Of a stretch of 39,681 bases of DNA, positions 7,072 to 35,090 are shown piece by piece. The notes under the pieces were generated by a model. That model was not told where the DNA came from. It searched no databases and saw only the letters and a list, made by a program, of their open reading frames with translations. Position numbers and translations under genes: made by a program. Within the stretch, counting starts at the first letter, position 1, and the number at the start of each line of letters is the position of its first letter. The stretch comes from Actinomycetes bacterium (GTDB lineage Bacteria; Actinomycetota; Acidimicrobiia; Acidimicrobiales; Acidimicrobiaceae), in assembly GCA_021803345.1 (NCBI GenBank), contig JAJZLS010000073.1, positions 1 to 39,681 on the forward strand. Reading direction: 5' to 3'.

Positions 7072-7078
7072 TGTAGTT

Positions 7079-11518: not shown

Positions 11519-11641
11519 GATCTACGACCTGGCGCCTTTGACGGTGTAGCTGCAAAGAAAAATCTCTTGGCTCTTCGCAGGACTAATTTAGGAAGTTCGA
11601 AAACAAGATCTCGATTCATCACCCGGGGAAAGGGGAGAGAA

Positions 11642-13994: not shown

Positions 13995-14855
13995 TCAGCT
14001 TTCCGCCTTTTGAAGGACCGGTGAAAATTCAGTTTCAAACCACTCGTTTGCGGCTAGAGGCGAATTCTCGGGTGCCGGGTCAGCGTGGTACTTAAAGGCT
14101 CTGACCAGAGAGTCTTTAACGCCGAAAACTGCGTCGGAATCAATATAAGGATCGCCTTTTTCAAATATATGGGTTACCAAGGTCTTATAGCCCGGTGCCG
14201 ACACCTTAAAATGCACATGGGCCGGTCGCATAGGTGATCGATTACACGAAGATAGCAGTCTCCCGACTGGGCCGTCAGTGGGTATTGAGTAATAGGATGG
14301 TTTGACGCACCAAACAGAGTAATTTCCGGTTTGGTCAGAATATAGGTGTCCTCTGCCGGCGCTGCCTTGGTCAAGGTATTCAACGTCATAGCGGCCTTGC
14401 TGGTCGGCTTCCCAAATTTCGATCAAGGCTCCCGGTACTATAGAACCATCCACACTTGTTACCGTTCCAGAAATTAACAATGGGATTCCAGGCGCCTCTC
14501 CGGGGAGTGTTCCTCCATTTAAAACCTCAGGCGATCCTTCGACGAAAAATGGACCGAAGACTGTCGACTCGGTAGCCCGCGAATCCTTTGGCGCATTTAT
14601 CTCAACCACCGTCATGGATAGACCCAGAACATCAGATAGAAGAATGAATTCCTGCCTTTTGTCAGTTGTGATATCCCCAGTCTGTTTGAGAAATTGAACT
14701 GCAACTGCCCACTCTTGTTCGGTCAGCTTCACCTCTCTGGCAAAAGAATGAAGGTGAGTTACTAGCGATGTCATTATCTCGCGTAGCCGAGGAGAGGGCG
14801 TTTCAGAGAAAGCGTCCAGTACTTGTTCTGTAAGTGTTTCTTTTGCAATGTCCAT
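13995..14855 (-). CDS. Intradiol ring-cleavage dioxygenase, hydroxyquinol 1,2-dioxygenase type
   Basis: Non-haem Fe(III) enzyme that opens a catechol-type ring between its hydroxyls. The four iron ligands are visible: Y156 (GRYDVEY), Y189 (SYYSIPTDGPVG), H213 and H215 (MRPAHVHF). The N-terminal helical linker (about 1–95) is the dimer domain of the catechol/hydroxyquinol group, and TVFGPFFVEGSP is a family block. The next gene in the operon encodes maleylacetate reductase, which makes hydroxyquinol (giving maleylacetate) the likeliest substrate; chlorocatechol-type specificity cannot be excluded. Length of 286 is typical. It is 10 bases downstream of the reductase gene and surely cotranscribed with it. 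Confidence 0.9.
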   Translation of the reverse strand: MDIAKETLTEQVLDAFSETPSPRLREIMTSLVTHLHSFAREVKLTEQEWAVAVQFLKQTGDITTDKRQEFILLSDVLGLSMTVVEINAPKDSRATESTVFGPFFVEGSPEVLNGGTLPGEAPGIPLLISGTVTSVDGSIVPGALIEIWEADQQGRYDVEYLDQGSAGRGHLYSDQTGNYSVWCVKPSYYSIPTDGPVGRLLSSCNRSPMRPAHVHFKVSAPGYKTLVTHIFEKGDPYIDSDAVFGVKDSLVRAFKYHADPAPENSPLAANEWFETEFSPVLQKAES

Positions 14856-14865
14856 TCATGTCCCC

Positions 14866-16026
14866 TTATGCACTGTGTTTCCGTAGCCATGCCTGCTGTA
14901 GCATGTCGGCAAATATGGGTTTTAGCTTTGCCTCTGAAGATTCAAGTGTCGAAGATGTCAACTGGTTTACTTGCAGCAGATTTTGCTTGCTTATCCCCAA
15001 GTCTCTTAGTGATTGACTGGATCCATATTTCTCAGATAGTTGAATTAGGTAGTTATTCAGTTCTGCAGTGTGAAATATCTCCACGATCTTGGCTTTCACC
15101 CGTTCTGAATAGATATGATCCATCATTGCCTGCACGCTGTATGGCAGAAGAGACGCATGAGCATTAGAGTGGGAAAGCCCATATGTCCCGCCCAAAACAT
15201 GGCAGATCCTATGGTGGAAGCTGGTGCCGGCTTGCGCTAGGCAAAGTCCGGCGTAAAACGACCCCCGCATCAGCATTGTCCTTGCGCGCAAATTTTGTCC
15301 GTTACCACCTTCCAGTTCTTTCAAGCCAACATTGATCTCCCTAAGTGCACTGGTTGCAAAGAGGTCAGTAACCGGGTTGTTTCTGGGTGACGCCAGAGCG
15401 CTAAATGCATGGGCTAAAGAATTAAAAGAACTGGTTAAGGTGAGTTCAGACCCAATATGAAGAGTCAACAGTGGATCATACACAACTGTCTTTGGCAGCA
15501 CCCGTGGGTCCACAACTGTCTTTTTTACACCTTCCGTAGTAATGCCGACAACAGGAGTAACTTCTGATCCTGCATAAGTGGTTGGCACCGCAATTATTGG
15601 GATTTCGGTATTCAGTGCAACTGCCTTTGCGGTGCCGGTTGTTGAGCCGCCCCCTATCGAAAGGATCAGGTCACAATTGTTCTTACGAAGTAAGTTTGTC
15701 GCACGCATCGCAACATCGCCTGGAACATGCTCCTCCACGTCAACAAAGGAAGTGGAAATGGGAATTCGGCTGTCAATAGTGCCAATTCTCCGCAAGGTTC
15801 CGGGAGTACTAACAAGAAGCACGCTCTGTGCGGACATTCTGGTAACTTCTGCATGAAGAGCTGAATTGAAGGCGCCGACGGCGAAAACAATCCGATAGGG
15901 CAGGGTTGTATAAACGAAGTCATCTTCAAAAGAATTCACCAATAGATTTTGCCATAGTTTTACAGATGATGGAGTTTGCCCTCCAATTAGCCAAAGCTTT
16001 TTTGACAGCAAGTCATTATTAACCAC
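14866..16026 (-). CDS. Maleylacetate reductase (iron-type alcohol dehydrogenase family)
   Basis: Reduces maleylacetate to 3-oxoadipate with NAD(P)H. Family blocks are FVYTTLPYRIVFAVGAF (from about residue 37), the nucleotide loop GGGSTTGTAKA (125–135), V-P-T-T-Y-A-G-S-E-V-T, the N-S-L-A-H-A-F segment in which Asn replaces the metal-binding Asp as in other maleylacetate reductases, and SFHHRICHVLGGTYGLSHSNAHA. The start is GTG at 16026; this gives about 37 residues before the usual family N-terminus, so a later start is possible, although no better ribosome site is visible. It is first in a two-gene operon divergent from the molybdenum hydroxylase genes. Confidence 0.9.
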   Translation of the reverse strand: MVNNDLLSKKLWLIGGQTPSSVKLWQNLLVNSFEDDFVYTTLPYRIVFAVGAFNSALHAEVTRMSAQSVLLVSTPGTLRRIGTIDSRIPISTSFVDVEEHVPGDVAMRATNLLRKNNCDLILSIGGGSTTGTAKAVALNTEIPIIAVPTTYAGSEVTPVVGITTEGVKKTVVDPRVLPKTVVYDPLLTLHIGSELTLTSSFNSLAHAFSALASPRNNPVTDLFATSALREINVGLKELEGGNGQNLRARTMLMRGSFYAGLCLAQAGTSFHHRICHVLGGTYGLSHSNAHASLLPYSVQAMMDHIYSERVKAKIVEIFHTAELNNYLIQLSEKYGSSQSLRDLGISKQNLLQVNQLTSSTLESSEAKLKPIFADMLQQAWLRKHSA

Positions 16027-16274
16027 GCAAAGAGCGGTTGCCCAGAGCGATCTGGACTGCAGATTGCAATGGTATTACGGTTAGGACTTCATTTGATGGT
16101 TAAATCTTGTTATTATTGGATAAGTAGTGAACTGTTGAACATTGAGATTTTAAAATTTCAACGGTCGCTGATTTTTGGGTGCTCTAATCGTGGAGTACTT
16201 CGAAAAATAAGCCGATCGGGCATGTTTTTATGTTCCGAGGTTGTTTGATTTAATTTCTTATAGAGGGTGGATAT

Positions 16275-18374
16275 ATGTCGGAACGTCGAATAGACGCGGT
16301 TGCCAAGGCTACCGGAATAGCTAAATACAGTGCTGATATCGTACTGGAAGGAATGGCATATGCAGCTGCAACCCGAAGTGCCTATCCTTCTGCAGTCATT
16401 GAAAGCATCGACACTTCTGAGGCCGAGAAGCTTGAAGGCGTGATTGGTGTTTTTACCGCTAAAGATCTTCCCGGAGGCAATCTTTATGGTCGTAGAGTGA
16501 TGGACGTCCCAATTCTTGTAGCCGACAGAGTGCGTTGGCTTGGGGATAGAGTTGCTGCGGTAGTGGCTACCACCCGCGAAATAGCAGAAAAAGCTGCTGA
16601 ACTGGTGCAAGTAACTTATAAGGAACTTCCCGCTGTCACAAACGCTGACGATGCAATTGCGCCGAATCCAGTGGTAATTCATGAGGCACCCTGGGATTAC
16701 AAGGGTGCGGTGGCTAAGCCGGAAATGGGACCCAATATACAGGCGCTTGAAATTCACGGCTCCAAGGAAAAGGCTGAACAAGCGCTAAGTAAGGCCGCAC
16801 ATACAATTGAAGCAACTTATTATACCCCTGGGGATCATCAGGGGTATATAGAGCCTCAGGCCTGTGTCGTCGATTACAAGCAAGATGGCAGCTTGAGAAT
16901 CTGGGCCACCAATAAGAGTCCTTATAGGTTACGCGAACAAATTGGTTTGGTCTTCGGACTCGATCCCAAAAGGATCGAGATCATGCCAGTAGTGCTGGGG
17001 GGAGACTTTGGCGGGAAAGGTGCGCCAGGAGAGGTTCCGCTGTGCACTGCGCTTTCTATCCTTACCAAACGCCCAATCAAAATGGCGCTTAGGTACAACG
17101 AGGATCTATTGGCAACTGACGGAAGACACGCTTCCAAAATAAAGGTGAAATTGGGGATTGACAAGGAAGGCCATTTTGTAGGGGGGACGTTCGAAGCTCT
17201 GTTGGACGGAGGTGCATACGCTGGATTCAAACCAGTTCCCACTGTCAATCTGCACGGAATAGTTGATGCAGCTATTGCCTATCGTATGCCGGAGTTTTAC
17301 GTTGAATCAAAGATTGTCTATACCAACAATCAACCAAAAGGTCACATGAGGGCGCCAGGATCGCCTCAGGCGGCATTCGCCTTTGAGTCCGCGCTTGACG
17401 AACTTGGCAAGAAAAGCGGATTAGGTCCAATCAAAATACGCGAGATGAATCTCCTTGACGACGGCGAAGTCAATGCTTATGGAGACAAGTGGCTGGAATA
17501 TCGCGGAAAGCAGGTTTTAGCTCTTGCGACGAATCAGCCTAAAGAAGTTGAAGTTCCAAAGGGGTGGCTCTACGGCGAAGGTATAGCTATTTATGCCCGA
17601 AGCATGCCTGCGGTTCCCAAGACCAGCTTGCGCCTGACTATGCAGGAAGACGGAAAGGTAGTCGTAGAGGTGCCAATTCCCGAAAATGGCGCCGGTGGTC
17701 AGACCGTAGTTAGGGAGATGATCAGAACGGGCCTTGGAATCGAGTCAGACAAGATTGAAGTAAGACAGGTCTCTACGTCTTCGCTTCCCACTGATGCTGG
17801 CGTGGGTGGAAGTCGGGTCAGTCTGGGAGTGACAGTGGCGGTAGCAAATGCTATCAAAGCCTGGAAAGAACGCCCAGCTGGAACCAACTCAGTCGAGGTA
17901 ACAACCAACGAGGAGTCTGATGGACCTAGTGGAGCGTACTGCGCGCAACTAGCTCGGGTTGCAGTTGACCCGGAAACCGGTCAGCTTAAGGTGTTAGAAA
18001 TCATATCTGCGGTAGATGTCGCGGAGATCGTAAATGAGAAGGCACACCAAATGCAGATTGATGGTGGGGCCGTAATGGGTTTCGGATTTGCAGTAATGGA
18101 AGATCTCCTCGAAGATGACGCCAGAGTATGGGCTCAAAGCATGGGTGAGTTCAAGCTCCCGAACATGGCAGACCTGCCCAAGCTGACAACCGTACTACTT
18201 CGAGGCGGCAAAGGGGTCGGACCAAACAATATCAAGAGCGTAGGGGAGTTGGCCAACTGTGGGACAGGAGCCGCAATCGCCAACGCAGTCACAGATGCAA
18301 CGGGAGTGCGAATACGAAGACTACCAATTAAAGCCGAGGCTATTTATTCTGGAATGAGAGAAGGCAACAACTGA
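16275..18374 (+). CDS. Molybdenum hydroxylase (xanthine dehydrogenase family), large molybdopterin subunit
   Basis: A 699-residue catalytic subunit binding molybdopterin cytosine dinucleotide or a related cofactor. Order of motifs: small N-terminal a/b domain (IDAVAKATGIAKYSADI), GGDFGGKG near residue 242, AYRMPEFYVESKIVYTNN, R-A-P-G-S-P-Q, G-V-G-G-S-R-V-S and the catalytic-glutamate region KSVGELANCG (Glu about 658). It lacks the CO-dehydrogenase CSFR loop, so it is more likely a hydroxylase of an aromatic or N-heterocyclic compound or an aldehyde oxidoreductase. GAGGG precedes the ATG. The stop overlaps the next start by one base (TGATG). Substrate unknown. Confidence 0.9.
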   Translation: MSERRIDAVAKATGIAKYSADIVLEGMAYAAATRSAYPSAVIESIDTSEAEKLEGVIGVFTAKDLPGGNLYGRRVMDVPILVADRVRWLGDRVAAVVATTREIAEKAAELVQVTYKELPAVTNADDAIAPNPVVIHEAPWDYKGAVAKPEMGPNIQALEIHGSKEKAEQALSKAAHTIEATYYTPGDHQGYIEPQACVVDYKQDGSLRIWATNKSPYRLREQIGLVFGLDPKRIEIMPVVLGGDFGGKGAPGEVPLCTALSILTKRPIKMALRYNEDLLATDGRHASKIKVKLGIDKEGHFVGGTFEALLDGGAYAGFKPVPTVNLHGIVDAAIAYRMPEFYVESKIVYTNNQPKGHMRAPGSPQAAFAFESALDELGKKSGLGPIKIREMNLLDDGEVNAYGDKWLEYRGKQVLALATNQPKEVEVPKGWLYGEGIAIYARSMPAVPKTSLRLTMQEDGKVVVEVPIPENGAGGQTVVREMIRTGLGIESDKIEVRQVSTSSLPTDAGVGGSRVSLGVTVAVANAIKAWKERPAGTNSVEVTTNEESDGPSGAYCAQLARVAVDPETGQLKVLEIISAVDVAEIVNEKAHQMQIDGGAVMGFGFAVMEDLLEDDARVWAQSMGEFKLPNMADLPKLTTVLLRGGKGVGPNNIKSVGELANCGTGAAIANAVTDATGVRIRRLPIKAEAIYSGMREGNN

Positions 18375-18820
18375 TGAAGATTAATTTCACATTGAATGGC
18401 AAAAGTGCAGAAATCGATGCCGATCCTATGGCGATGGCATTGGATGTCATTAGAGACTTAGACCTGACTGGCACCAAGGAGGGATGTGGAGTCGGAGTTT
18501 GCGGCGCATGTACGATCATGGTGGATGGGGAGCCGGTTAGCTCATGCATCTGTGTGGTTGGAACACTTCAAGATAGAGAGGTGTGGACAGTTGAGGGGAT
18601 ATCCGAAAAGATGCCCGATCTCATTGAAAAATTTATCGACAACGAAGGGATGCAGTGCGGAATTTGCACTCCAGGTCAAATCATGGCCGCTGCAGCAATC
18701 TCATCGGTAGATATAACCTCTGAAGAGGACATCAAAAAATACATGGCTGGAAATCTTTGCAGATGCACCGGCTACCAGACCATCTTGAATGCCGTGGAGG
18801 ATTACCTTGCCATCAACTAA
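18374..18820 (+). CDS. Molybdenum hydroxylase, [2Fe-2S] small subunit
   Basis: A 148-residue electron-transfer subunit with two [2Fe-2S] clusters. The plant-ferredoxin-type cluster uses C38, C43, C46 and C58 (EGCGVGVCGACTIMVDG); the helical-domain cluster uses C95, C98, C129 and C131 (MQCGICTPGQ and NLCRCTGYQ). Length is close to the norm of 150–170. It starts on the TGATG overlap with the large-subunit gene, indicating translational coupling, and overlaps the FAD-subunit gene at its end. All eight cluster cysteines are present, so the complex should be functional. Confidence 0.94.
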   Translation: MKINFTLNGKSAEIDADPMAMALDVIRDLDLTGTKEGCGVGVCGACTIMVDGEPVSSCICVVGTLQDREVWTVEGISEKMPDLIEKFIDNEGMQCGICTPGQIMAAAAISSVDITSEEDIKKYMAGNLCRCTGYQTILNAVEDYLAIN

Positions 18821-19661
18821 AACAGAATTTTTAGCTCCTACCTCCATCGACGAAGCCTTACAGGCAATTTCTTATGAGGACGCAATATTTCTCGGAGGCG
18901 GCACCTCGACGGCCCTGCTGTACAAGACCAGGTTGATTGAACCGTCAAGGGTTGTCTGGTTGGGAGCGCTGAGAGATTTGAGCGGAATCTCAATCTCTAA
19001 GAACGAGATCCGGATCGGATCTATGGTATCAATGTCAAAGATATCTCAGTCAAATGAACTTTCTCAATTAGTCCCTGCCCTGACCACCGCTGCTGGCGTG
19101 ATTGGAAATGCCAGGGTCAGGGCTATGGCTACAATTGGCGGAGCACTGGCTCATGCTGATCCGCGCCAGGATGTTCCACCGGCTCTAATTGCGCTTGACG
19201 CAGTTGTTGCAACCAAAAGTTCAGGCGGCAGCCGAGAGGTACCCTTAGCTGAATTTTATGAGGGTTTCTTAGAGACAGTTTTGGCTGAAAGCGAACTGAT
19301 AACTGAGGTGAAGATCCCTGTCGTGGCAAATCGGCGTTCTGCATACCTTCGCTACACGCCGACAAGCGAGGGCGACTATCCAACGGTTGGTGTGGCGGCA
19401 TCTGTTACCTACGACAGCAACAACAAGGCGATTAAAGATGTACGAATCGTGCTGTGCGGAGTAGGCCAAACTCCTATTTTAGCTACCGATTCTGCCCAAA
19501 AAGTAATCGAGGGCAATGCCAACCCTGAATCGCTTCGTGAGGCGGCAAACCTGGTCAAGCAGGCCGTAGATCCACACGATGACGAGAGAGGCTCGGCTGA
19601 CTATAAACGTGAGATGAGCGAAGTATTTACCCTTCGCGCCCTCAGGGAGTGCCTTGCCTAA
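18807..19661 (+). CDS. Molybdenum hydroxylase, FAD-binding medium subunit
   Basis: A FAD subunit of the CoxM/XdhB type, passing electrons from the iron–sulfur subunit to an acceptor. FAD-contact blocks are F-L-G-G-G-T-S near residue 30 and A-T-I-G-G-A-L-A-H-A-D-P near residue 110; the C-terminal domain has YLRYTPTSEGDYPTVGVA and REMSEVFTLRALRE. I favour the TTG at 18807, because GGAGG (18796–18800) lies 6 bases before it; an ATG at 18789 is also in frame. The gene overlaps the small-subunit gene by 14 bases. The 284-residue length fits the family. It converges on the GntR gene across a 14-bp inverted repeat. Confidence 0.9.
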   Translation: MPSTKTEFLAPTSIDEALQAISYEDAIFLGGGTSTALLYKTRLIEPSRVVWLGALRDLSGISISKNEIRIGSMVSMSKISQSNELSQLVPALTTAAGVIGNARVRAMATIGGALAHADPRQDVPPALIALDAVVATKSSGGSREVPLAEFYEGFLETVLAESELITEVKIPVVANRRSAYLRYTPTSEGDYPTVGVAASVTYDSNNKAIKDVRIVLCGVGQTPILATDSAQKVIEGNANPESLREAANLVKQAVDPHDDERGSADYKREMSEVFTLRALRECLA

Positions 19662-19673
19662 AGAAACGTCTGC

Positions 19674-19708
19674 CCAGATGATTGCCTGCTAATTAGGCAA
19701 TCATCTGG
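19674..19708. repeat. Perfect 14-bp inverted repeat at the convergent end of the FAD-subunit and gntR genes
   Basis: CCAGATGATTGCCT (19674–19687) and its exact complement (19695–19708) flank the 7-base loop GCTAATT. One arm is the last codons and stop of the gntR gene (Q-M-I-A-stop). There is no T-run on either side, so it is not a classical intrinsic terminator, but its position between convergent genes suits a bidirectional transcript end or stabilising hairpin. Confidence 0.75.
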
Positions 19709-20439
19709 AATCGGAACGGCGTCCGGCTGCGGTGCAGTTCAAGCAGAGACTTTGCTAAAATTGGATTGTTACTTCTGATCGCTTCCACAAGTTCAATATG
19801 CTCTTGAACTCCAGGGTGGCCACGATCGGGTTCGTCTTCACTCAACGGTTTATCAAATAGTTCCAAAGTAACCTGAAAAGTATCTACGATCATGTCGAGT
19901 GCACGATTGTGGGCGCAGTGAGCCAATGCCCGGTGAAACTGAAGTGATAAGGATAATGAATAACACCCTTTTTCGAGAGCAATCAGGGAATCAGAACAGA
20001 CCTTATCGAGTACGCTCAGATCGTCTGATGTAATTCTCTCGCAAATGAGATCGATCAAGCCGACTTCGAACGAAAGTCGTGCTTCACGAACTTCTGCTGC
20101 AGAAAGAGTTGCTGTGGCAATCATATCATTGAGACTGTTAGCGATACTAACGCTACTAGGAGCTGTTACAAAAGCTCCTCCTCTTGATCCAACCCGTATT
20201 TCAATTAGTCCCATAGTTTCAAGAATCCGAAGTGCATCCCGCACTGTCGCGCGTCCTATTCCAAATGACTGGCACAGCTCACGCTCACTTGGAAGTTTGT
20301 CATGGGGTTTTAGAACGCCTTCACGGATAAGCACCTTGATTCGATCTACAATAATTGACGAAACTCTGACAGTATTGACTGGATGAAACATCAGTGTTTT
20401 GGGCTGTCTACTTACACTTTCGCTGTCTGAATCAACCAT
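19693..20439 (-). CDS. GntR-family regulator, FadR/FCD subfamily
   Basis: Winged-helix repressor with a FadR-like all-helical C-terminal ligand domain. The HTH region is KLPSERELCQSFGIGRATVR, followed by DALRILETMGLIEIRVGSRG, the usual wing. The FCD part (about residues 110–235) has EVREARLSFEVGLIDLICER and an S-L-Q-F-H-R-A-L-A-H metal/ligand-site block. I place the start at ATG 20439, preceded by a run of G (GGGGGGG) 2–3 bases before it, as also seen before the ThDP gene; ATGs at 20463–20472 and TTG 20481 are in frame. It is divergent from the bicupin operon, the likely target. The ligand is probably a pathway acid. Confidence 0.88.
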   Translation of the reverse strand: MVDSDSESVSRQPKTLMFHPVNTVRVSSIIVDRIKVLIREGVLKPHDKLPSERELCQSFGIGRATVRDALRILETMGLIEIRVGSRGGAFVTAPSSVSIANSLNDMIATATLSAAEVREARLSFEVGLIDLICERITSDDLSVLDKVCSDSLIALEKGCYSLSLSLQFHRALAHCAHNRALDMIVDTFQVTLELFDKPLSEDEPDRGHPGVQEHIELVEAIRSNNPILAKSLLELHRSRTPFRFQMIA

Positions 20440-20770
20440 TGCCCCCCCGAAACCCTTAACCATTGTCATCATGGCAAACAACTATGACTTTTATTACATC
20501 TATGTATATCATTTATCGAGGAACTTTGCTATTTAGCCTTCCTTTGTGGGCTGGCGGTCATCGGTTTAGGCCGATATACAATAACTGCTTCCAGATTTGA
20601 CAGCCAAGCGATTGGGTATAACAATAAGAAAAATAATCCAGCGCTTGCTTTTAAGCTAAGATAAAACCCGCCGATAAGGAAGCCTTAAAATTTTCCTTCA
20701 ATTTGAGCTTTCTTGTCGTGGTGGATTTATATTGGCTAATTGTGATGAAAACAGAAATGGGAGCCAGTGA
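20440..20770. promoter_or_regulatory. Divergent control region between gntR and the bicupin operon
   Basis: An exact 8-base inverted pair, TGTATATC (20503–20510) and GATATACA (20573–20580), flanks the middle of this region and is a candidate operator for the adjacent GntR regulator. Downstream, TTGACA (20597–20602) with AACAAT (20620–20625) at 17 bases, or TATAAC (20617–20622) at 14, gives a plausible rightward promoter, leaving a leader of about 140 bases to the bicupin ATG. The rest holds no ORF with a ribosome site. Confidence 0.5.
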
Positions 20771-21838
20771 ATGACAAATGTTACTAGAACTTCGACGAGT
20801 CATTACGAAGTTCAAAAAACACGACGAGCAAAATTTATCGAGGATTGGCGAAACAATCATCGAACCGTGATTCGCGTCGAAGACGTTGAGATGAAAGAGA
20901 CATCCAGAGGTCTGATATCCGGTGGATACATAGGTCCCGATGTTGATAAGCCGACACGAACAATGGATGCAGCGGTACATGAAATCAGTCCCGGAATCAC
21001 GAGTGGAATTCATCGCCATTCATGGGATGCAATGATGTATTGCGTTGGAGGATTCGGTTGGACCGAGATCGATGGTCAGCGGATCAACTGGGGTCCTGGT
21101 GACAGCCTTCATCTTCCGGCATGGGCGTGGCATCGTCACGGTAATGAAGGTAAAGAACAAGCTCGTTATATGTCATTCTCCAGTGAACCGTTCATGGAAA
21201 TTCTCGGCTTCGCCATATTAGAGGACGAGGGAGATGCAGATGTTTCCAAACTGCCGGGTCGTCCAAACTTTACCGAAGCAGTATCCGGAAATGACGCTTA
21301 TGCCAGAAGAATACGTCGCCTAGCTGGCGAGCAGCAAGCCCGAAGAACCGGCCGCCTGCACACGCCCTGGGAAGAACTGGAATTCCTTCAGACCCCACGA
21401 GGTACCCGTACCACGTTCTTGCTTGATCGAGCCACTGGATATCAGGCATCCGGCATTACTATGGCGATGTTCGAAATCGCACCAGGTAGAAGGCAATCAA
21501 TGCACCGCCACCCGGGGGAAGCCTGGTTGTATGTAGTTGACGGGAAAGGCCACTCATTTTTAGGTACTGAGCCGGACAATGGCGAGGATCATGAATGGGA
21601 AAAGGGCGATCTCATAATCGTAGATCATTTCCTTTGGCACCAACACTTCAATGACGACCCGGAGAACAGCGCCCGAGTGGTAAGAATTCACATGTTCGAC
21701 ACTGTACTTGAAACCATGAGGGCTCTCTGTGACCCGCTGGTACTTTTCGAAGAGCCACCAGACGAGATCCGAAATGCCCAGGCTGGAGATCTCAGTACAA
21801 TTCGTTGGCCAGAAGTAAGGCGGCCCTCTTGGCCATAG
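20771..21838 (+). CDS. Bicupin protein, gentisate-dioxygenase-like
   Basis: A 355-residue protein with two cupin barrels. The first has H81 and H83 (GIHRHSWDAMMYCVGGFG) and H121/H123 (WAWHRHGNEG), with Asp86 near the position of the usual Glu. The second has a full motif: H245, H247 and E250 (MHRHPGEAW) and H290 (LWHQHFND). This tandem layout and the HRH segments resemble gentisate 1,2-dioxygenase and related Fe(II) ring-cleaving bicupins, but identity to a known enzyme cannot be checked here; an isomerase or storage-type bicupin is possible. GGGAG lies 7 bases before the ATG. Its 3' end overlaps the TRIP13-like gene. Confidence 0.8.
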   Translation: MTNVTRTSTSHYEVQKTRRAKFIEDWRNNHRTVIRVEDVEMKETSRGLISGGYIGPDVDKPTRTMDAAVHEISPGITSGIHRHSWDAMMYCVGGFGWTEIDGQRINWGPGDSLHLPAWAWHRHGNEGKEQARYMSFSSEPFMEILGFAILEDEGDADVSKLPGRPNFTEAVSGNDAYARRIRRLAGEQQARRTGRLHTPWEELEFLQTPRGTRTTFLLDRATGYQASGITMAMFEIAPGRRQSMHRHPGEAWLYVVDGKGHSFLGTEPDNGEDHEWEKGDLIIVDHFLWHQHFNDDPENSARVVRIHMFDTVLETMRALCDPLVLFEEPPDEIRNAQAGDLSTIRWPEVRRPSWP

Positions 21839-22716: not shown

Positions 22717-22738
22717 AGTTAAGAATTCCGGGGGGAAC

Positions 22739-25058: not shown

Positions 25059-26549
25059 ATGACCATTGAAAATCCACAGTCTCTGCAAGCGTACGCACCT
25101 GGAACTCCGCCTGGTTTAGATGGGTTTGAATATCCGGCTCCCAGGCACCCTGTCTATCTGCGTCAGGAAAGGTCGACGGATGTCGAAGAGTTGATGCCAC
25201 TTGCTAGATCGGTAGCTAGACGGAGGTATGGTCGGGCCGCTCTTGGTCTAACTGAACCCGGAGACAAAATTCTGGTAATCACATATCCTCACCAGAATGA
25301 GGTGGTTTACCAGGCAGTGAGCAGAGCGCTACTGGAAGAAGGCGCATCCAGCGTCGACCGAATTGACGTCACTGACCTGGGTATGGAGGTCAAAACTTAC
25401 AGTGCCGCCGAAGGATGGCGTGAAATCACCGATCGACTTCCTCCAATGGTTGAAAGCGGAGTCGAATTCAATGTTGCTGCTGCAACTCTTAAAAATTACC
25501 TTCAAGACCGCCCTGGTTACACTGCTGTGTTGGCCGGAGAGGCTGGACGACGCCACTGGAAGCGTGCAGCCGGGCAACGGGTTAAAAATAACTGGATGTA
25601 CGCAACCTATGAAGACTTTATTTCCAGAGCCAATAGCTATCCGGACGAGCTCTGGAGAACAATCGACCTCAAGGTTGTTGAATCATTCAAAGATGCAGAA
25701 GAAATTCGCATTACCAGTCCTGAAGGTACTGATATCGGATGGAAGGTGACCGCTGAGCAAGCTGACCTCTGGCAACAGGGAGCTTTCCAGTCTGGACACA
25801 TCATTGGATCAACTATCCAGGGAATTCGCTTTGGCCACCCTGTAGAAACCTTTGTCAAGCAGGCTGACTCGTTGTATCAGACTCTCAATGGTGTAGTGGC
25901 TGGAGTTAGTAACCACACCGGATATTTTCCTCACATTGAAGTCCACATAGAGCGAGGTCAGATCGCCAAAATAGTTGGAGGAGGGCGATATGGGGAGCTA
26001 TGGCGTGAGGTGGTAGAAAAATATAAGGATTACCACTACCCGGGGTTTCCATATCCCGGATGGCATTACTTTAATGATGCTTCAATTGGGACGAATCCCA
26101 AGAGCTACCGCCAAATAGAAACTCTCTGGAATTATAACGACTCTTGGACCAACCTACCGGAAAGGGCACAGGCCGGAGTGATTCACTTTGGCTTCGGAGC
26201 TGAGCACTGGGATCAAACCTTCTTGAGCTACGCTAAGGAAAACCGTCTCCCAACCATGCACTTTCCTCATGTCCACAATGTTTTTGCCACCTACAAAATC
26301 AAAAAGAGGAGCACCGGCGAATGGTATACCCTCATTGAGAAAGGCCGATTAAAGATCCTTGACGAACCAGATGTGGTTCGCTTGGCCTTGACCCTTGGGG
26401 ATATAAAACTTCTTGAATATGACTGGATACCAGCAGTGCCTGGAATCAACTACCCCGGCGACTATATGAAAGATTACGCCAGTGACCCAATCTCCTGGAT
26501 TAAAAGAGACCAAGAGGGTGAGTTTGCAGTGAATAGGGAGCTAAGGTGA
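25059..26549 (+). CDS. Peptidase M29 (aminopeptidase T)-like metalloprotein
   Basis: A 496-residue protein recalling the aminopeptidase T/M29 superfamily, which also contains the Fe(II) ring-cleaving enzyme NicX (2,5-dihydroxypyridine dioxygenase). Visible family-like blocks are LTEPGDKILVITYPHQNEVVY, N-V-A-A-A-T-L-K-N near residue 145, the DIGWKVTAE segment, a D-A-S-I-G-T-N-P strand (usually E-x-x-x-G-T/L-N-P), AGVIHFGFGAEHWD and MHFPHVHNVF in place of the usual H-x-D. The altered ligand set argues against a normal aminopeptidase. The 496-residue length exceeds the M29 norm of about 370–410. Its stop overlaps the CbbQ-like start (GTGA), making it the likely client of that ATPase. Specific reaction unknown. 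Confidence 0.65.
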   Translation: MTIENPQSLQAYAPGTPPGLDGFEYPAPRHPVYLRQERSTDVEELMPLARSVARRRYGRAALGLTEPGDKILVITYPHQNEVVYQAVSRALLEEGASSVDRIDVTDLGMEVKTYSAAEGWREITDRLPPMVESGVEFNVAAATLKNYLQDRPGYTAVLAGEAGRRHWKRAAGQRVKNNWMYATYEDFISRANSYPDELWRTIDLKVVESFKDAEEIRITSPEGTDIGWKVTAEQADLWQQGAFQSGHIIGSTIQGIRFGHPVETFVKQADSLYQTLNGVVAGVSNHTGYFPHIEVHIERGQIAKIVGGGRYGELWREVVEKYKDYHYPGFPYPGWHYFNDASIGTNPKSYRQIETLWNYNDSWTNLPERAQAGVIHFGFGAEHWDQTFLSYAKENRLPTMHFPHVHNVFATYKIKKRSTGEWYTLIEKGRLKILDEPDVVRLALTLGDIKLLEYDWIPAVPGINYPGDYMKDYASDPISWIKRDQEGEFAVNRELR

Positions 26550-27400
26550 CCCAAAACCTGGTCACCGCTTCGCCAAAACAGGTTAATGGAGCCGAGCCTT
26601 TTTATGTAGCCACTGGAGATGAAATATCACTGTTTGAGGCCGCTTATTCCGACAGAACTCCAGTACTGCTCAAAGGGCCTACAGGAACCGGGAAAACCCG
26701 GTTCCTTGAGTATATGGCATACAGGCTGTCTGCGACAGGCGGGGAAAATATTCCCTTGAGTACTGTTAGCTGCCAGGAGGACCTTACCGCGTCCGATCTG
26801 TTAGGAAGATTTATCCTTGAATCCAATGGGACAAGATGGGTGGACGGACCGCTAACCAACTCAGTCCGAAATGGCGGGATTTGCTATTTGGATGAAGTGG
26901 TGGAGGCCCGTAAAGATGTGATGGTAGTCGTCCATTCTCTGACTGATCATAGGCGAATGCTTCCAATTGCAAAATTAGATACTGTAATTGAAGCCCATCC
27001 GTCTTTTTTATTGGCTATTTCATATAACCCCGGCTATCAAACCAGTATCAAAGATTTGAAGCACTCCACCCGTCAACGGTTTATAGCTATTGATTTTTCC
27101 TACCCACCCCAGGAGGTCGAGCGCGAAATACTTGTCAAAGAAGGTGGCGCTTCACAAGAAGATGCTGAACGATTGAGTTCTCTGGCAGTAAGACTTCGTA
27201 ATTTAAATCAGGATTATCTTGTGGAAGGTCCCAGCACTAGACTACTGATTTATGCGGCGCGTCTAATACAGCGCGGCATTCCCAGGTACCGTGCCTGTAT
27301 GGCTGCGGTAGCTGATGTAGTTACCGACGATTACGTTACTCGCCAGGCGATCAGCGAAGTAATCACGACTTACTTCGAAGACACTGATACTAGGTTATAA
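26546..27400 (+). CDS. CbbQ/NirQ/NorQ-type MoxR AAA+ ATPase
   Basis: A 284-residue MoxR-group ATPase of the CbbQ/NorQ branch, whose known members act with a VWA partner to activate Rubisco (CbbQO) or to mature nitric oxide reductase (NorQD). Walker A is GPTGTGKT (44–51), Walker B ICYLDE (112–117). The branch-specific segments SCQEDLTASDLLGRF, GTRWVDGPL, VHSLTDHRR and SYNPGYQ...STRQRF are all present. Start is GTG 26546 with GGGAG 5 bases before it, overlapping the M29-like stop by 4 bases. Neither Rubisco nor NOR genes are in the window, so the client must be another protein, most simply the coupled M29-like protein. Confidence 0.9.
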   Translation: MTQNLVTASPKQVNGAEPFYVATGDEISLFEAAYSDRTPVLLKGPTGTGKTRFLEYMAYRLSATGGENIPLSTVSCQEDLTASDLLGRFILESNGTRWVDGPLTNSVRNGGICYLDEVVEARKDVMVVVHSLTDHRRMLPIAKLDTVIEAHPSFLLAISYNPGYQTSIKDLKHSTRQRFIAIDFSYPPQEVEREILVKEGGASQEDAERLSSLAVRLRNLNQDYLVEGPSTRLLIYAARLIQRGIPRYRACMAAVADVVTDDYVTRQAISEVITTYFEDTDTRL

Positions 27401-27412
27401 TTGCGGATCCAA

Positions 27413-29530
27413 ATGGCAAGTACCATATTCGATTGCACTGAACTCAGACTCGAAGCTTATGAGATGTATTTCAAAGCTCTCACTGGAGCCAATATAACCA
27501 TAGAGGAGTTCGAGCCAGAGACGAAGTTTCCATTTCCGGACACTCCGACAACTCTTCGTTTACCTAGGTGCGTAGAGAAGTTAGCCAAGCCGATTTTTTT
27601 CCAAATCGCGCTAGCTCACAGAGCCCAACGAATAACGACATCAACCTTTAAAGTAGATGTTTTACCGATAGTAGACAGCGAAAAACTCGCAAAACTTGAT
27701 GATGAGGTGAATGGATTCGCCGAGTCTCCTCTGGAACTATTTTTTCGGTGTTTTGCCGACAAGCATTTAGCACAGTTTATTTATCAGTGTCTGGACGATA
27801 TGAAAATCGATCTAAACCTGCCACATTATTACCCAGGATTGACCGGCAAACTGGGCAAGGTCATTAAAGCGTCGTTATCTGACCGGCCGGTGTTGACGGG
27901 TATGGTGCCGAAAGCTGCCGCAATGGAACTGCTTCTTCAGGCTAGCCTGGGCCACAGGTATTCATCGTTGCCGTATCCTATTGTTGAAGCTGGATCGGAG
28001 ATATATGCGATTATCGATACCATCAGCTTTTTTGATATCAGCCAACAATCGGTGCTTGAGGCGACCGTCAGAATCTATAGCTGCATTAATGCGCTTCCAA
28101 GCCTGGGAAAACTCACCGGATTTGACAATTTGGCTGACATCACTGCCAATCCCCGACGAGTAAAGAATTTATGGCCCAACCCTTGGCCGGAGTCTGCCAG
28201 GGCGCGTATTGAAGGCGATGATATTTTAGACGTTACCATTCCTCAAGTCGCATATCGCGGTTCAATTGAGGCACTGTTAGCAAGCGCACCGGCAGCAGCT
28301 GGTCCAGATCATCAAGCGCTCTACCGTCTCTCCAAATTGTCCAATTTTTCAGACTCAGAACCTGATCTCGGTAGTAGGCCAAAGATGGATGGGCCGCCAG
28401 AACCCCTCCCACACGAACACCACGATCTCGCCAGAGAACTCCACCATCACGAAGAAGGAGAGCTTCACCATAAGGGAGGCAATTCCTACCTTTATCCAGA
28501 GTGGGACGTGTATCAACAACGATACAGAAAAAACTGGTGCAGGGTGATAGAAGAGAAACCTTTTGCAGCTACCGATGGTGAAAAGGTATCACTACAGGTC
28601 AGATATGCCAAGGAACTCAACCGGCTCAAGCGGGTGATGGAAATTCCAAACTCAAATGCGTTCACTGCTCAGCGACGGCGCTCCGGAGGACCTGACCTTG
28701 ATTATGATGCAGCTGTTGATGCGATGATTGATCTCCGCAGCGGGATGGAACCATCAGAGAACATTTATATAGATCTAGTTCGGAAAAAACGTGACGTCGC
28801 AATATTAATACTGATTGATATAAGCGCATCAACTGCTGAAAGAGTTGAAAATGCGGAGCCAATTCTCCTTGACCTTTCGGGTCTTCCCAGTCAGCAAGTT
28901 AAGGAGAGACCACCGAGAATACTCGATTTAGAAATCATAAGTTCACTGCTATGCAGCAATGCGCTGGAGGGAGTTGGAGATGCATTTAGCATCTGGGCCT
29001 TTTCGGGCACTGGGCGTGAACATGTGATGCTCAGCGAGATCAAACCCTTCAATCAGTCAATGTCCGGAGTTGTAGTTTCAAGAGCTGCGGCACTAAAACC
29101 GGTACATGCGACAAGATTAGGAACAGCAGTCAGACATTGTGGAAAAGTCTTAGGTAAAATCCAAGCAGAAACAAAACTTCTATTGGTACTTACAGACGGA
29201 CGCCCCTACGATACCGACTACGGAACCTCATATGGAGAGACTGAATCTCAGTCATATGCGATCGCTGACAGTGATATGGCTTTCAAGGAAATAATGGAAA
29301 TGGCAATAGACCCATATGTTCTTACCATAGATGCGCAAGGAGAACAGTACATATCACAGTTCAAAAATGTCCAAGTTGACCTCTTAAAAGATGTAAGCCA
29401 ACTACCAGAAAGGCTGCTGAAGCTTTATTTGAACCTGGTTATCGGCCAGCAAAGCTACAAAAGTCGTGTCCGAACCGCCGCATCTAATCAAAACCTCTTG
29501 CAGAAAGTTGTAGGGAAAACAAGCGTATGA
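27413..29530 (+). CDS. CbbO/NorD-type von Willebrand factor A protein
   Basis: VWA partner of the preceding CbbQ-type ATPase, expected to link the hexamer to its client. The C-terminal VWA domain has the MIDAS motif D-I-S-A-S (about 468–472), E-G-V-G-D-A-F-S-I-W-A-F, ATRLGTAVRHCG and LLLVLTDGRPYD (about 590). The central LYPEWDVYQQRYRKNWC block matches NorD/CbbO. Just before it is a histidine-rich tract (8 His in 20 residues, about 333–352; 28411–28470). I use ATG 27413; TTG 27401 is the alternative. Length is 705, similar to CbbO. The stop overlaps the permease start as ATGA. Confidence 0.88.
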   Translation: MASTIFDCTELRLEAYEMYFKALTGANITIEEFEPETKFPFPDTPTTLRLPRCVEKLAKPIFFQIALAHRAQRITTSTFKVDVLPIVDSEKLAKLDDEVNGFAESPLELFFRCFADKHLAQFIYQCLDDMKIDLNLPHYYPGLTGKLGKVIKASLSDRPVLTGMVPKAAAMELLLQASLGHRYSSLPYPIVEAGSEIYAIIDTISFFDISQQSVLEATVRIYSCINALPSLGKLTGFDNLADITANPRRVKNLWPNPWPESARARIEGDDILDVTIPQVAYRGSIEALLASAPAAAGPDHQALYRLSKLSNFSDSEPDLGSRPKMDGPPEPLPHEHHDLARELHHHEEGELHHKGGNSYLYPEWDVYQQRYRKNWCRVIEEKPFAATDGEKVSLQVRYAKELNRLKRVMEIPNSNAFTAQRRRSGGPDLDYDAAVDAMIDLRSGMEPSENIYIDLVRKKRDVAILILIDISASTAERVENAEPILLDLSGLPSQQVKERPPRILDLEIISSLLCSNALEGVGDAFSIWAFSGTGREHVMLSEIKPFNQSMSGVVVSRAAALKPVHATRLGTAVRHCGKVLGKIQAETKLLLVLTDGRPYDTDYGTSYGETESQSYAIADSDMAFKEIMEMAIDPYVLTIDAQGEQYISQFKNVQVDLLKDVSQLPERLLKLYLNLVIGQQSYKSRVRTAASNQNLLQKVVGKTSV

Positions 29531-31605
29531 TAAGTCATCTGGTTTCCGGACTTACCAACCTGGCAACAGCGTCAACCTTCCTGTTGCTGCTTTTTGGAAT
29601 GGTAATCGGGATGTTCATGGGAATGCTCCCTGGGCTCGGGGTAGTACTTGTTCTTAGTCTGATGTTACCGTTCGTACGACATATGTCAGTGTTGGACGCC
29701 ATCTCAATGATGCTGGCCACGCAAGCGGGAGTATATTTCGCTGCTTCAATTACTGCAATTGTCTTGAATTCTCCCGGAGCACCAGAGTCATACCCCACCA
29801 CATTAGACGGGTATCCGATGGCCAAAAGGGGAGAGGCCGGAAAGGCGTTAGCAATATCGGCCACCTCTACCTGGCTTGGCGGCTGGGTTGCATGTGTATT
29901 TTTTGTCATCTTCATACAGTTCGCAGGACCGCTAAATAAAATATTCCATCCACCGGAATACATGGCAATCATCATCCTGGCCATTGTACTGATAGCTCAG
30001 ACCGGGTCGATTCCGCTTACCAAGGTATTTATTTCTGGTCTGCTGGGCCTGATGCTTTCCTTTGTTGGAAGCGATCCGGTAACCGGAGTGGAACGATTCA
30101 CCATGGGATTGCCCACCCTGTACAGCGGAATTGGAATCGTACCATTTGCTCTTGGAGTCTTTGCAATCACTCAGATGATAAAAATGTTTGGAAGTGGAAG
30201 ATCCGTAGCCAGCTTCGATTCTGCTCAGCTTGGCGAGGGCTTTCACGCCCAAGTCCGAATGGGAATAGCTGAGACTTTCAAGAATTGGTATCACGTTCTA
30301 AGGTCCTCAATTATTGCGGTCTTTTTAGGGTTAGTCCCTGGAATAGGTGGATTTACCGCGAACTTTATCTCATACGGAGTTGGGCAGAGGGTTTCAAAGG
30401 ACGGCAAGAAATTTGGTACCGGAGTCACTGCAGGATTAATTTCTGCGGAAGGCTCCTCTCTGTCAAAAGAGGTCGGATCGATTATTCCAGCAGTTGCCCT
30501 CGGACTTCCGTCAGGACTGGGTATGGTGATCTTTTTGGCAGCCCTAACAATACTTGGTTTGGAACCTGGTCCGACGCTTCTGAATACTACTCCCAGCTTG
30601 TCATATTCAATGATGTGGGTGATGGCGATTGCCGGATTTCTGTCTTGCTTATTGGGTCTGTTTCTTGCTCCTCAGCTTTCAAAAATAACCAAGGTAAAGG
30701 GTCCATTTATTTTTCCTTTCATCATTGCGCTTTCCGTCCTTGGCAGCTTTGCTTCCGCAACTACATTGACCGGTGTGTACCTTCTGGTTTTGTTTGGAAT
30801 AATTGGAGTGATCTTTAGGGACCTTGGGTACTCCGTAGCTGCTGCTTCTATCGGATTGGTACTTGGTGGTACCTTTGACGATAACGTTCATTTGACCTTT
30901 TCCCTTTATGGATGGGATTTCCTCTATAAAAGTCCACTTGCAGATGTCTTTTTAGCAATTGCAATTTACCTAATAATTTCGGCAGGAAGGCGCTGGAGTA
31001 AGACAAGGGCTGAGCGAGTAGCCCAAGAACTCAAGCACCCGTTGATGGAATGGATATTCGACGCATCCATGCTGGTATTTTCTATCGTGTATTTGATAGT
31101 CGGTACTGGTTATCCAACTCAGGCTGGCGAGATTCCGGTAATTGTGGCAGCGCTTGCCATCCTTGCATCTGGTTACAGATTGATTGGTGATTTTCGAACC
31201 TGGTTGAAAATCCGCAATCTCGACTACGACTCAGCGGAAGCAGAGCTTTCCCACCTTCACCATATTGACACGACACCTGCCCCGGATACTCAGGGCGAGG
31301 CGCAGGTAGCCGTGATGACAAGAGCCGAGGAGGAAAGTGAGCCTAAGTCGAAAGTGGATCGCAGAAAACGCAATATGCGTGAACTCGCTGCCATCGGATG
31401 GTTCGTAGGTTTCGCAATTGCGGCATTCATATTAGGATTCGAAATTGGGATTCCATTGATTACCATTATCTATTCTTTGGTAATCAAGGAATTCACCAGT
31501 GTTCGAAGGCGTATCATCTTTACAATAAGTGCGGCACTCGCTACTGGAATAATTTCATATGGCTTCGTGCAGTTATTCCACCTTACCTTTCATGGGATGA
31601 TATAA
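29527..31605 (+). CDS. Tripartite tricarboxylate transporter permease, TctA–TctB fusion
   Basis: Membrane component of a TTT-family secondary transporter for organic acids. Residues 1–500 are TctA-like: GMVIGMFMGMLPGLG, N-S-P-G-A-P-E-S-Y-P-T-T-L-D-G-Y-P-M-A and L-G-L-V-P-G-I-G-G-F-T-A-N are signature segments. From about residue 505 a further part with about four hydrophobic helices and a charged linker (about 570–620) looks like a TctB small subunit, normally a separate protein of about 150 residues. The total of 692 residues supports a fusion. It overlaps the VWA gene by four bases and precedes the TctC gene, so uptake and the activase genes are coexpressed. Confidence 0.88.
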   Translation: MISHLVSGLTNLATASTFLLLLFGMVIGMFMGMLPGLGVVLVLSLMLPFVRHMSVLDAISMMLATQAGVYFAASITAIVLNSPGAPESYPTTLDGYPMAKRGEAGKALAISATSTWLGGWVACVFFVIFIQFAGPLNKIFHPPEYMAIIILAIVLIAQTGSIPLTKVFISGLLGLMLSFVGSDPVTGVERFTMGLPTLYSGIGIVPFALGVFAITQMIKMFGSGRSVASFDSAQLGEGFHAQVRMGIAETFKNWYHVLRSSIIAVFLGLVPGIGGFTANFISYGVGQRVSKDGKKFGTGVTAGLISAEGSSLSKEVGSIIPAVALGLPSGLGMVIFLAALTILGLEPGPTLLNTTPSLSYSMMWVMAIAGFLSCLLGLFLAPQLSKITKVKGPFIFPFIIALSVLGSFASATTLTGVYLLVLFGIIGVIFRDLGYSVAAASIGLVLGGTFDDNVHLTFSLYGWDFLYKSPLADVFLAIAIYLIISAGRRWSKTRAERVAQELKHPLMEWIFDASMLVFSIVYLIVGTGYPTQAGEIPVIVAALAILASGYRLIGDFRTWLKIRNLDYDSAEAELSHLHHIDTTPAPDTQGEAQVAVMTRAEEESEPKSKVDRRKRNMRELAAIGWFVGFAIAAFILGFEIGIPLITIIYSLVIKEFTSVRRRIIFTISAALATGIISYGFVQLFHLTFHGMI

Positions 31606-31616
31606 GTGAGGCAGCC

Positions 31617-31646
31617 CTGGGTTGCCCAGATATGGCCTTTGGCCAT
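31617..31646 (+). promoter_or_regulatory. Two tandem hairpins between the permease and binding-protein genes
   Basis: CTGGG-TTG-CCCAG (31617–31629) and ATGGCC-TTT-GGCCAT (31632–31646) are perfect short stems side by side, 12 bases after the permease stop and 87 bases before the TctC start. No T-tract follows. Such structures often protect a downstream transcript so that the binding protein is made in excess; that role is inference. Confidence 0.5.
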
Positions 31647-31732
31647 CAATAGGGGGGGTGTTGTGGGGATCAGCGAAATTCGTTAGAAACTTGTAATTTA
31701 CGTAAACTTTGAAAAGAAATCGGTAGGAGAAA

Positions 31733-32848
31733 ATGAAAACAATTAATCTCAGTAAAATCAAGCTCCGTAAAAGGGTCTCTGTAATGGGGATTGGAGTAGC
31801 AGCAGCTGGAATGCTATTGGCTGCATGTGGATCAGGAAGTACAACTTCATCAAGTACATCCAGCACAAGTTCCGGGTCAACTGCCACTACATCAGCTACA
31901 GCTGCTGCGGCGGCATATTTCAAGGGCAAGACCATAACACTTATCGCTCCAGACAATCCTGGCGGTGACTTTGATCTCTATGCTCGTATTGTTGCGCCGG
32001 CACTTGGAAAGTATCTAGGGGCCACAGTAAATGTTGAAAATGTAAACGGTGGTGGTACCGTGGTCGGCACCAACCAAATGGCGGCAGCATCACCCAACGG
32101 GCTTACACTCGGAGTTGTCAATTTCGGTGGCGACGAGGCCAGCCTTATCGAAAAGAAAACCGGTCAAAACTTCAACCTGGCCAAACTGAGCTACATTGGT
32201 CAGCCGGGATCTTCACCCAGCGTGTTCATAACTCAACCCAATTCTGGATTTAGTTCATTTAAGCAACTCCTGAGCGTAAAGACTCCTATCAAGGTTGTCG
32301 ACGTACGAAATGGTACTGGAGACATGATGAACAGGGTGGTCCTTGGGGCATTTAATATACCGCACACCTTCATCACAGGGTTTACGTCGGTAAGTGCCCT
32401 CAAACAAGGGTTCCTGGCTGGAGATGGACAGTTCGCCTTTGAAAATCTGCCACCATTCCGGTCCATGCTGGATGGCGGACAGGCCAAGGCACTTCTAACC
32501 ACGTTTGAGCCGACACTACCTACGCTTAAAAAAGCGGTAGGTTCCGCGATCACGCTAAGTCAAGCTCTTAAGCTTACCACGCTAACCTCTGCTCAATCTG
32601 CTGCAGTCAAAGAGGCCTTGGCACTGAGTAACGTGACATTTGACTTTGCAGGTCCTGCTGGAATTCCGAGTGCACGACTCGCCGTTTTGCGTGAAGCCTT
32701 CAAAAAGGCTCTGGCTGACCCGAGCACTATTGCCGCTGCCAATAAGGAAGGGGAGCCGCTTAGCTACACCAGTGGCGCCACTGTGACATCGGAAATTCAG
32801 ACCGCCATATCTCAGGCCTCCACAATCTCTACCTATGTAAATGGTTAG
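31733..32848 (+). CDS. TctC/Bug-type solute-binding lipoprotein
   Basis: Extracytoplasmic receptor of the tripartite tricarboxylate transporter. The N-terminus is a lipoprotein signal: basic residues to about 14, a hydrophobic stretch and lipobox L-A-A-C with Cys32 as the acylated residue, followed by a Ser/Thr-rich linker (33–60). The mature domain begins at KGKTITLIAPDNPGGDFDLYAR, a version of the family's ligand-loop N-P-G-G-x-x-D, and has N-V-N-G-G-G-T-V-V-G-T-N. AGGAG lies 3–4 bases before the ATG. It is last in its operon and ends 42 bases before a strong terminator. Bug proteins bind carboxylates, including aromatic acids; the ligand here is unknown. Confidence 0.9.
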   Translation: MKTINLSKIKLRKRVSVMGIGVAAAGMLLAACGSGSTTSSSTSSTSSGSTATTSATAAAAAYFKGKTITLIAPDNPGGDFDLYARIVAPALGKYLGATVNVENVNGGGTVVGTNQMAAASPNGLTLGVVNFGGDEASLIEKKTGQNFNLAKLSYIGQPGSSPSVFITQPNSGFSSFKQLLSVKTPIKVVDVRNGTGDMMNRVVLGAFNIPHTFITGFTSVSALKQGFLAGDGQFAFENLPPFRSMLDGGQAKALLTTFEPTLPTLKKAVGSAITLSQALKLTTLTSAQSAAVKEALALSNVTFDFAGPAGIPSARLAVLREAFKKALADPSTIAAANKEGEPLSYTSGATVTSEIQTAISQASTISTYVNG

Positions 32849-33756: not shown

Positions 33757-33866
33757 CTCTTAGCAGTCAAATCTCGATTCAACCTAGGCAGCTGGGGGTT
33801 AGTGCGAGTTGATCGTGATTTGTGAAATATCCAGCTAATTAGTGACTCAATTGGAGGAAAATTATT

Positions 33867-35037: not shown

Positions 35038-35090
35038 CTATTAATAATTTTACTCACAATGAAAATAATCTCAGAGAAGGAACCAAATAC

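Follow-up and report, generated by a model that had tools for sequence, protein, structure and literature searches.

A putative catabolic gene block of an Acidimicrobiaceae genome with two AAA+ ATPase genes beside candidate ring-cleavage enzymes

Closest described systems

AAA+ ATPases (ATPases associated with diverse cellular activities) of the TRIP13/Pch2 family have been studied as HORMA remodellers in cell division, meiosis and phage defence, and those of the NorQ and CbbQ type pair with the von Willebrand factor A (VWA) proteins NorD and CbbO. Here we describe a gene block in which ATPases of both kinds are encoded beside putative metalloenzymes. It lies in a 39,681-nucleotide stretch from an Acidimicrobiaceae bacterium (JAJZLS010000073.1; the whole stretch is hereafter the window), which is contig C21 of a 2.65 Mb genome (94.9% complete, labelled G000); L numbers denote loci and G numbers genomes of the comparison set. 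The genes concerned form two modules, A (the first three rows) and B (the last two):

25059–26549, plus strand: M29-like protein (M29L), a putative Fe(II) ring-cleavage enzyme of NicX fold by predicted model, proposed client of CbbQ–VWA
26546–27400, plus strand: CbbQ/NorQ-type MoxR AAA+ ATPase (AAA_5; CbbQ_C, E 6e-24; Walker A GPTGTGKT)
27401–29530 (first ATG 27413), plus strand: NorD/CbbO-type VWA adaptor (PDB 9qhd NorD, E 2.7e-25, residues 331–670)
20771–21838, plus strand: bicupin, gentisate-dioxygenase-like, proposed TRIP13 client (Cupin_2; PDB 3bu7)
21829–22716 (start TTG 21829 or 21805), plus strand: TRIP13-family AAA+ ATPase, no HORMA partner seen (PADLOC TRIP13; PDB 4xgu)

Module A shares with NorQ–NorD and CbbQ–CbbO a CbbQ_C ATPase adjoining a VWA protein with a DxSxS metal ion-dependent adhesion site (MIDAS), but the gene partner here is an enzyme of predicted NicX fold and not nitric oxide reductase or Rubisco; a Pfam scan of 30 window proteins showed neither of these. 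NicX itself, a 2,5-dihydroxypyridine dioxygenase, is only 14% identical to M29L and shorter (about 350 versus 496 residues), and no AAA+ partner is mentioned for it in the available part of its paper. The ATPase of module B matches the PADLOC TRIP13 family, as in type III CBASS (cyclic oligonucleotide-based antiphage signalling system), and is 36–45% identical to 12 of 13 plasmid copies; it differs in being coupled to a bicupin, in having no HORMA or CD-NTase (cGAS/DncV-like nucleotidyltransferase) partner that could be found, and in a pore-loop E123 that replaces K in most rows. The bicupin resembles gentisate and 5-aminosalicylate 1,2-dioxygenases in its match to 3bu7 and in its NCBIfam scores, although these lie far under the cut-offs and the window protein has possible metal ligands in both cupins, a T/R-rich N-terminal tail and a TRIP13 partner. 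A more distant parallel is ClpX, an AAA+ protein of another family that activates another metabolic enzyme, 5-aminolevulinate synthase, from an unstructured N-terminal extension, as stated in the available part of the report (PMC7077987). The most surprising part is the TRIP13–bicupin link, of which no description was found in the literature searched; nor did any paper, judged by title and abstract opening, pair CbbQ/MoxR–VWA with a dioxygenase or aromatic degradation.

We read the block, with a probability of roughly 0.6, as serving the catabolism of an aromatic or N-heteroaromatic carboxylate that is imported; each of its two metal-dependent ring-cleavage enzymes would have its own AAA+ remodeller, dedicated to it and co-translated with it. 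The preliminary description of this DNA had pointed out that each AAA+ gene overlaps the 3' end of a putative metalloenzyme gene, and this is so: M29L and CbbQ share 4 nt (GTGA), and the bicupin and TRIP13 genes share 10 nt (TTG 21829) or 34 nt (TTG 21805). Homologues of the ATPases neighbour these enzymes commonly rather than rarely, with CbbQ and/or VWA adjoining 26 of 28 close M29L genes (the window counted) and a bicupin adjoining 17 of 20 TRIP13 copies outside CBASS. Because both adjacencies recur widely, they are more than chance.

The M29-like protein and the neighbouring CbbQ–VWA genes

The window M29L matched no Pfam family at E up to 1, and searches by phmmer or profile returned no meaningful PDB match, NicX included. 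An assignment as an M29 peptidase thus found no backing by sequence; the relation is visible in fold comparison only, where the predicted model, compared by VIA-align, supports a NicX-type fold. Invariant histidines include H376, H401, H404 and H406, at most candidate counterparts of the His/Ser/His/Asp iron ligands of NicX.

The VWA protein, likewise with no Pfam or NCBIfam match, resembles NorD and carries the MIDAS sequence DISAST as well as LVLTDGRP. DxSxST is found in 22 of 25 collected VWA pieces, the other three being truncated by contig ends. An AAA_5 and CbbQ_C ATPase adjoining a MIDAS-bearing VWA protein is confirmed, so that what had been presented as a pair of M29L and CbbQ is correct in its adjacency but is really a module of three genes, the VWA gene having been omitted. 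Within the genus, VWA diverges much faster than M29L (739–769 of 1602 bits versus 1045–1054 of 1164, six loci).

A profile scan of named genomes returned 26 further M29L loci on 25 contigs. These come from Actinomycetota metagenome-assembled genomes, including the window's genus, and from Streptosporangiales, Actinoallomurus, Phytohabitans, Nitriliruptorales, Nocardioidaceae, and Oxalobacteraceae or other Betaproteobacteria; no M29L match was found on plasmids. Both partners accompany M29L in 22 of the 28 cases (one of these, L070, has its CbbQ at a distance of 1.2 kb). The two genes with neither partner are that of L062, where the contig stops 2 bases past M29L, and the upstream copy of a tandem pair in L070. 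The order is mostly M29L–CbbQ–VWA, with CbbQ–VWA–M29L in L060, L061 and L067 and VWA–M29L, as far as the contig reaches, in L059 and L068. The surroundings vary, with tripartite tricarboxylate transporter genes in the window's genus and Streptosporangiales, solute-binding proteins of the ATP-binding cassette (ABC) type in Oxalobacteraceae and Nocardioides, and thiamine diphosphate (ThDP) enzymes in Phytohabitans and Herminiimonas. The genus also has a distant M29L-related family (about 32–35% identity; L034, L036, L037, L041–L044), and near none of the nine distant genus homologues (31–35% identity, several on short stretches) was CbbQ or VWA found.

CbbQ–VWA might instead mature the molybdenum hydroxylase of the locus, in the manner of CoxD/CoxE of carbon monoxide dehydrogenase, with M29L a mere neighbour. 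MoxR/VWA pairs serving molybdenum hydroxylases are known (CoxDE), and the window does encode such a hydroxylase. Across taxa, however, CbbQ–VWA tracks M29L and not the hydroxylase, which has no match in the examined stretches of L054, L055, L057, L058 and L067; conversely, the bicupin–TRIP13 module of G002 carries a molybdenum hydroxylase with no close M29L found, and CbbQ_C scores clearly in Pfam. We regard this maturation role as very improbable, and M29L as probably the client of CbbQ–VWA.

The bicupin and the adjoining gene of a TRIP13-type ATPase

By homology to solved members the window bicupin is gentisate-dioxygenase-like, any activity on gentisate being putative. Its match to the gentisate 1,2-dioxygenase 3bu7 has an E value of 3.8e-19, and its NCBIfam scores, both far under the cut-offs, are 74 bits for MabB and 63 bits for gentisate 1,2-dioxygenase. 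Both cupins keep possible metal ligands, including candidate metal histidines in the first (H81, H83 and H121); these three, and H245, H247, E250 and H290, are invariant in the nine rows of alignment A4. The ATPase matches PADLOC TRIP13 with E 2e-90 (301 bits), and its best solved-structure matches are eukaryotic Pch2/TRIP13 (PCH-2, 4xgu, E 9.2e-34); it has the motifs GPPGTGKT and VVVIDEVES. The start candidate TTG 21829 is found in 9/9 genus loci, and every one of the 16 same-strand pairs offers a TRIP13 start candidate with a 4–10 nt overlap of the bicupin stop.

The genome scans scored the best few candidates per genome, so misses are possible. A bicupin precedes TRIP13 in 9/9 genus copies (from nine of the ten genus genomes; the remaining one, G005, is 82% complete). 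In an even sample of the class, TRIP13 was found in 7/296 genomes (E 1e-25); seven class places outside the window's genome comprise five directly after a bicupin, L094, where a one-domain cupin (6835–7359) stands right before TRIP13 with molybdenum hydroxylase and ThDP genes around, and L093, with no adjoining cupin and two bicupin-like frames a few kb upstream. Two more copies came from 396 phylum genomes at E 1e-40, one in G508 (convergent with a bicupin) and one in a CBASS operon (G676). The M29L genomes added three: those of G699 and G706 follow a bicupin, and that of G703 (L131, 4427–6489) stands right behind an ABC transporter ATPase gene in a locus with neither bicupin nor CBASS match. 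The bicupin was found in 6/296 class genomes (E 1e-50), TRIP13 being present in 6/6 of these; with the window's genome included, Fisher's test gives 8e-12 by genome and 1e-8 by genus, with phylogeny ignored. The phylum sample has the bicupin in G000, G508 and G370, the last without TRIP13 and with weak AAA matches only.

A remnant of CBASS was considered and rejected, as the window and three genus loci (L027, L030, L032) contain no HORMA or CD-NTase and CBASS queries match TRIP13 only. All 13 plasmid relatives of the ATPase are below 60% identity, 12 of them at 36–45% over most of the protein. Ten were opened, one of which (Shinella) had no annotation; the nine annotated records are CBASS operons, in which two small genes lie between a CD-NTase gene and the AAA gene. 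The small genes carry a HORMA annotation in three records, and bacHORMA_2 was confirmed in both of those tested. On the unrooted TRIP13 tree the CBASS rows form a cluster of their own, set off from the rows linked to a bicupin (moderate support, 92/90); the tree is compatible with one common origin of the bicupin-linked rows.

To our knowledge, and in line with a CBASS review, the described TRIP13/Pch2 substrates are HORMA proteins. The window ATPase might accordingly have as its substrate a HORMA-like protein that escaped recognition and is encoded elsewhere in this genome, and owe its place behind the bicupin to operon hitchhiking, and the genome-wide search, which covered bacHORMA_2 alone, leaves room for this. 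Yet bacHORMA_2 is absent in 16/16 non-CBASS genomes tested, G000 included, with the CBASS genome G676 positive; bicupin adjacency is frequent and co-occurrence near-perfect in the class sample; and residue 123, which aligns with the pore loop, is E in 9/10 bicupin-linked rows versus K in 7/8 CBASS rows. A hidden HORMA substrate is thus unlikely, and the bicupin is probably the client of TRIP13, a relation held with slightly less confidence than that of module A.

A possible site of recognition is the N-terminal tail of the bicupin (MTNVTRTSTSHYEVQK in the window). A T/R-rich tail before HY/HW..Q opens 17/17 TRIP13-adjacent bicupins (e.g. TRTSTSHY, TRTTTSHY, SRTTTNVTHY), and CBASS HORMA N-termini are similar (TRTHTATH, SRTHTAKY, SRTQSVTY). 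With a matrix built from eight HORMA tails, expected matches per N-terminus were 0.0003–0.0023 for all but one of the 15 adjacent bicupins scored and 0.02 for the exception, that of L115, versus 0.006–0.3 for five untagged genus bicupins. The bicupins of L142 and L052 have the tail but no adjoining TRIP13, and both genomes have TRIP13 elsewhere; that of L142 (770–1831, contig C27 of G000) is a second tailed bicupin in the window's genome. Tailless are the five genus bicupins beside M29L (G004, G005, G007) and that of G370 (MTGTTHY); the genus examples indicate that the bicupin type can exist without the tail. Proof of the tail's role by counting on a tree, built without the tail, was underpowered, two changes being too few for a test. 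According to one study, binding by human TRIP13 requires the N-terminal region of Mad2, although there is debate over the end from which Mad2 is pulled (PMC5717197).

Several points weigh against the proposed reading. The M29L model is moderate (predicted local distance difference test score 68) and its metal ligands are tentative, and one M29L copy of the tandem pair in L070 lacks a CbbQ gene inside 6 kb. Non-CBASS TRIP13 occurs with no adjoining bicupin in L131 and L093 (G302), and beside a one-domain cupin in L094. The five genus bicupins beside M29L have neither TRTxT tail nor adjoining TRIP13, with TRIP13 elsewhere in G004 and G007. The Fisher counts, besides ignoring phylogeny, use thresholds that differ between the two proteins; the likeness of bicupin and HORMA tails was spotted by eye prior to scoring; and the link between tail and TRIP13 amounts to about two independent losses, not significant on the tree (1–2 concordant, 0 discordant pairs). 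Finally, bacHORMA_2 was the sole HORMA family searched genome-wide, and G699, G703 and G706 were outside that search, although their loci show no CBASS match.

Proposed pathway and the remainder of the block

In the proposed pathway TctA and TctC would import the carboxylate and the molybdenum hydroxylase would hydroxylate its ring. The bicupin and M29L are candidates for O2-dependent ring opening, the ThDP enzyme would decarboxylate a keto acid, and the hydroxyquinol branch would, judging from the families, end at 3-oxoadipate. The families also favour N-heteroaromatic or aminosalicylate-like acids as the substrate class. In module A the VWA protein would hold M29L while CbbQ pulls on this adaptor, M29L opening for iron loading or release of a dead-end ligand; the analogy is NorQD, for which finger-in-pore twisting has been proposed as the way in which nitric oxide reductase is opened (PMC13036017). 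In module B TRIP13 would grip the T/R-rich tail and partly unfold the bicupin, so that metal could enter the opened cupin site or an inhibitor leave it. The client relations are better supported than the reason for remodelling, for which metal loading stands at about even odds. Somewhat below this we place the tentative proposal of a TRIP13 lineage outside HORMA biology that acts as an enzyme activase, recognising a TRTxTSHY-like, CBASS-HORMA-like bicupin tail, with a NicX-fold enzyme of the same locus as the client of a NorQD-like pair.

The ATPases could also be quality-control unfoldases that clear damaged enzyme. AAA+ rings commonly unfold their substrates and oxidation readily inactivates non-haem iron enzymes, but neither ATPase has a protease domain and the close relatives NorQ, CbbQ and TRIP13 are described as remodellers; we consider clearance improbable beside activation.

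If activation is correct, aromatic catabolism would include a layer that has gone unnoticed, the loading of metal into ring-cleaving dioxygenases with the help of AAA+ ATPases, and the idea of MoxR/VWA "metal inserters" would reach these enzymes. A HORMA-free TRIP13 clade tied to a metabolic enzyme would widen the substrate range of the family and offer a small soluble system for how TRIP13 selects substrates. Attempts to produce such dioxygenases in a foreign host might fail if their ATPases are left out, which would matter for function assignment in uncultured degraders.

The preliminary description had placed both modules in one pathway. The two pairings are conserved, whereas one obligate pathway was rejected, since the modules occur apart in other genomes. 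G002 has bicupin–TRIP13, but its M29L is a distant one (34% identity), and the Oxalobacteraceae genomes of L054, L055 and L069 (G700, G701, G707) have M29L–CbbQ–VWA and lack any TRIP13 match at E 1e-15; in G702, G704 and G705 the only TRIP13 matches are weak (around 1e-19 to 1e-20) and inside larger AAA proteins. Because the modules travel separately, the single-pathway claim is weakened.

The genes listed earlier and their coordinates were confirmed. The block runs in the order hydroxyquinol dioxygenase, maleylacetate reductase, molybdenum hydroxylase (three genes), GntR, bicupin, TRIP13-type AAA+, ThDP enzyme, M29L, CbbQ, VWA, TctA and TctC, the genes outside the modules being:

13995–14855, minus strand: hydroxyquinol 1,2-dioxygenase (PF00775/PF04444; PDB 1tmx, E 2e-91, 310 bits)
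14866–16026, minus strand: maleylacetate reductase (iron-containing alcohol dehydrogenase family; PDB 3w5s, E 4.8e-59; 3hl0, E 6.1e-54)
16275–18374, plus strand: molybdenum hydroxylase large subunit, xanthine dehydrogenase family (MoCoBD_1/2, Ald_Xan_dh_C)
18374–18820, plus strand: molybdenum hydroxylase 2Fe-2S subunit (Fer2_2, Fer2)
18789–19661, plus strand: molybdenum hydroxylase FAD subunit (FAD_binding_5, CO_deh_flav_C)
19693–20481, minus strand: GntR/FCD regulator (PF00392, PF07729)
22739–24523, plus strand: ThDP-dependent decarboxylase-like enzyme (TPP_enzyme_N/C; benzoylformate decarboxylase 4q9d, E 6.7e-27)
29527–31605, plus strand: TctA carboxylate transporter (PF01970, E 2.2e-102)
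31733–32848, plus strand: TctC substrate-binding protein (PF03401, E 1.7e-10)

Close homology to solved members is confirmed for the hydroxyquinol dioxygenase and the maleylacetate reductase; the molybdenum hydroxylase large subunit lies under the cut-offs of all 13 NCBIfam models listed. The GntR/FCD regulator stands between molybdenum hydroxylase and bicupin in seven more genus loci with contigs long enough (L027, L030, L032, L110–L113), and the VWA stop overlaps TctA by 4 nt.

M20-type aminohydrolases are known from nitroanthranilate breakdown, and M20-peptidase-like genes lie beside bicupin–TRIP13 in L090 (6569–7990, a borderline match) and L096 (6531–7835). In L115 (2076–4212) the bicupin and TRIP13 genes are convergent and not co-directional, with an adenylate/guanylate cyclase gene adjoining. 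Upstream of the window's block are two adjoining ornithine-cyclodeaminase/mu-crystallin genes (10448–12745). Related genes lie near TRIP13 in other loci too (L094, L112, L129), so that the two may be part of the pathway. Right behind the block is a sulphate assimilation run (33148–38001; siroheme, adenosine 5'-phosphosulphate kinase, CysH, ATP sulfurylase, sulphite reductase), also found in L030 and L032.

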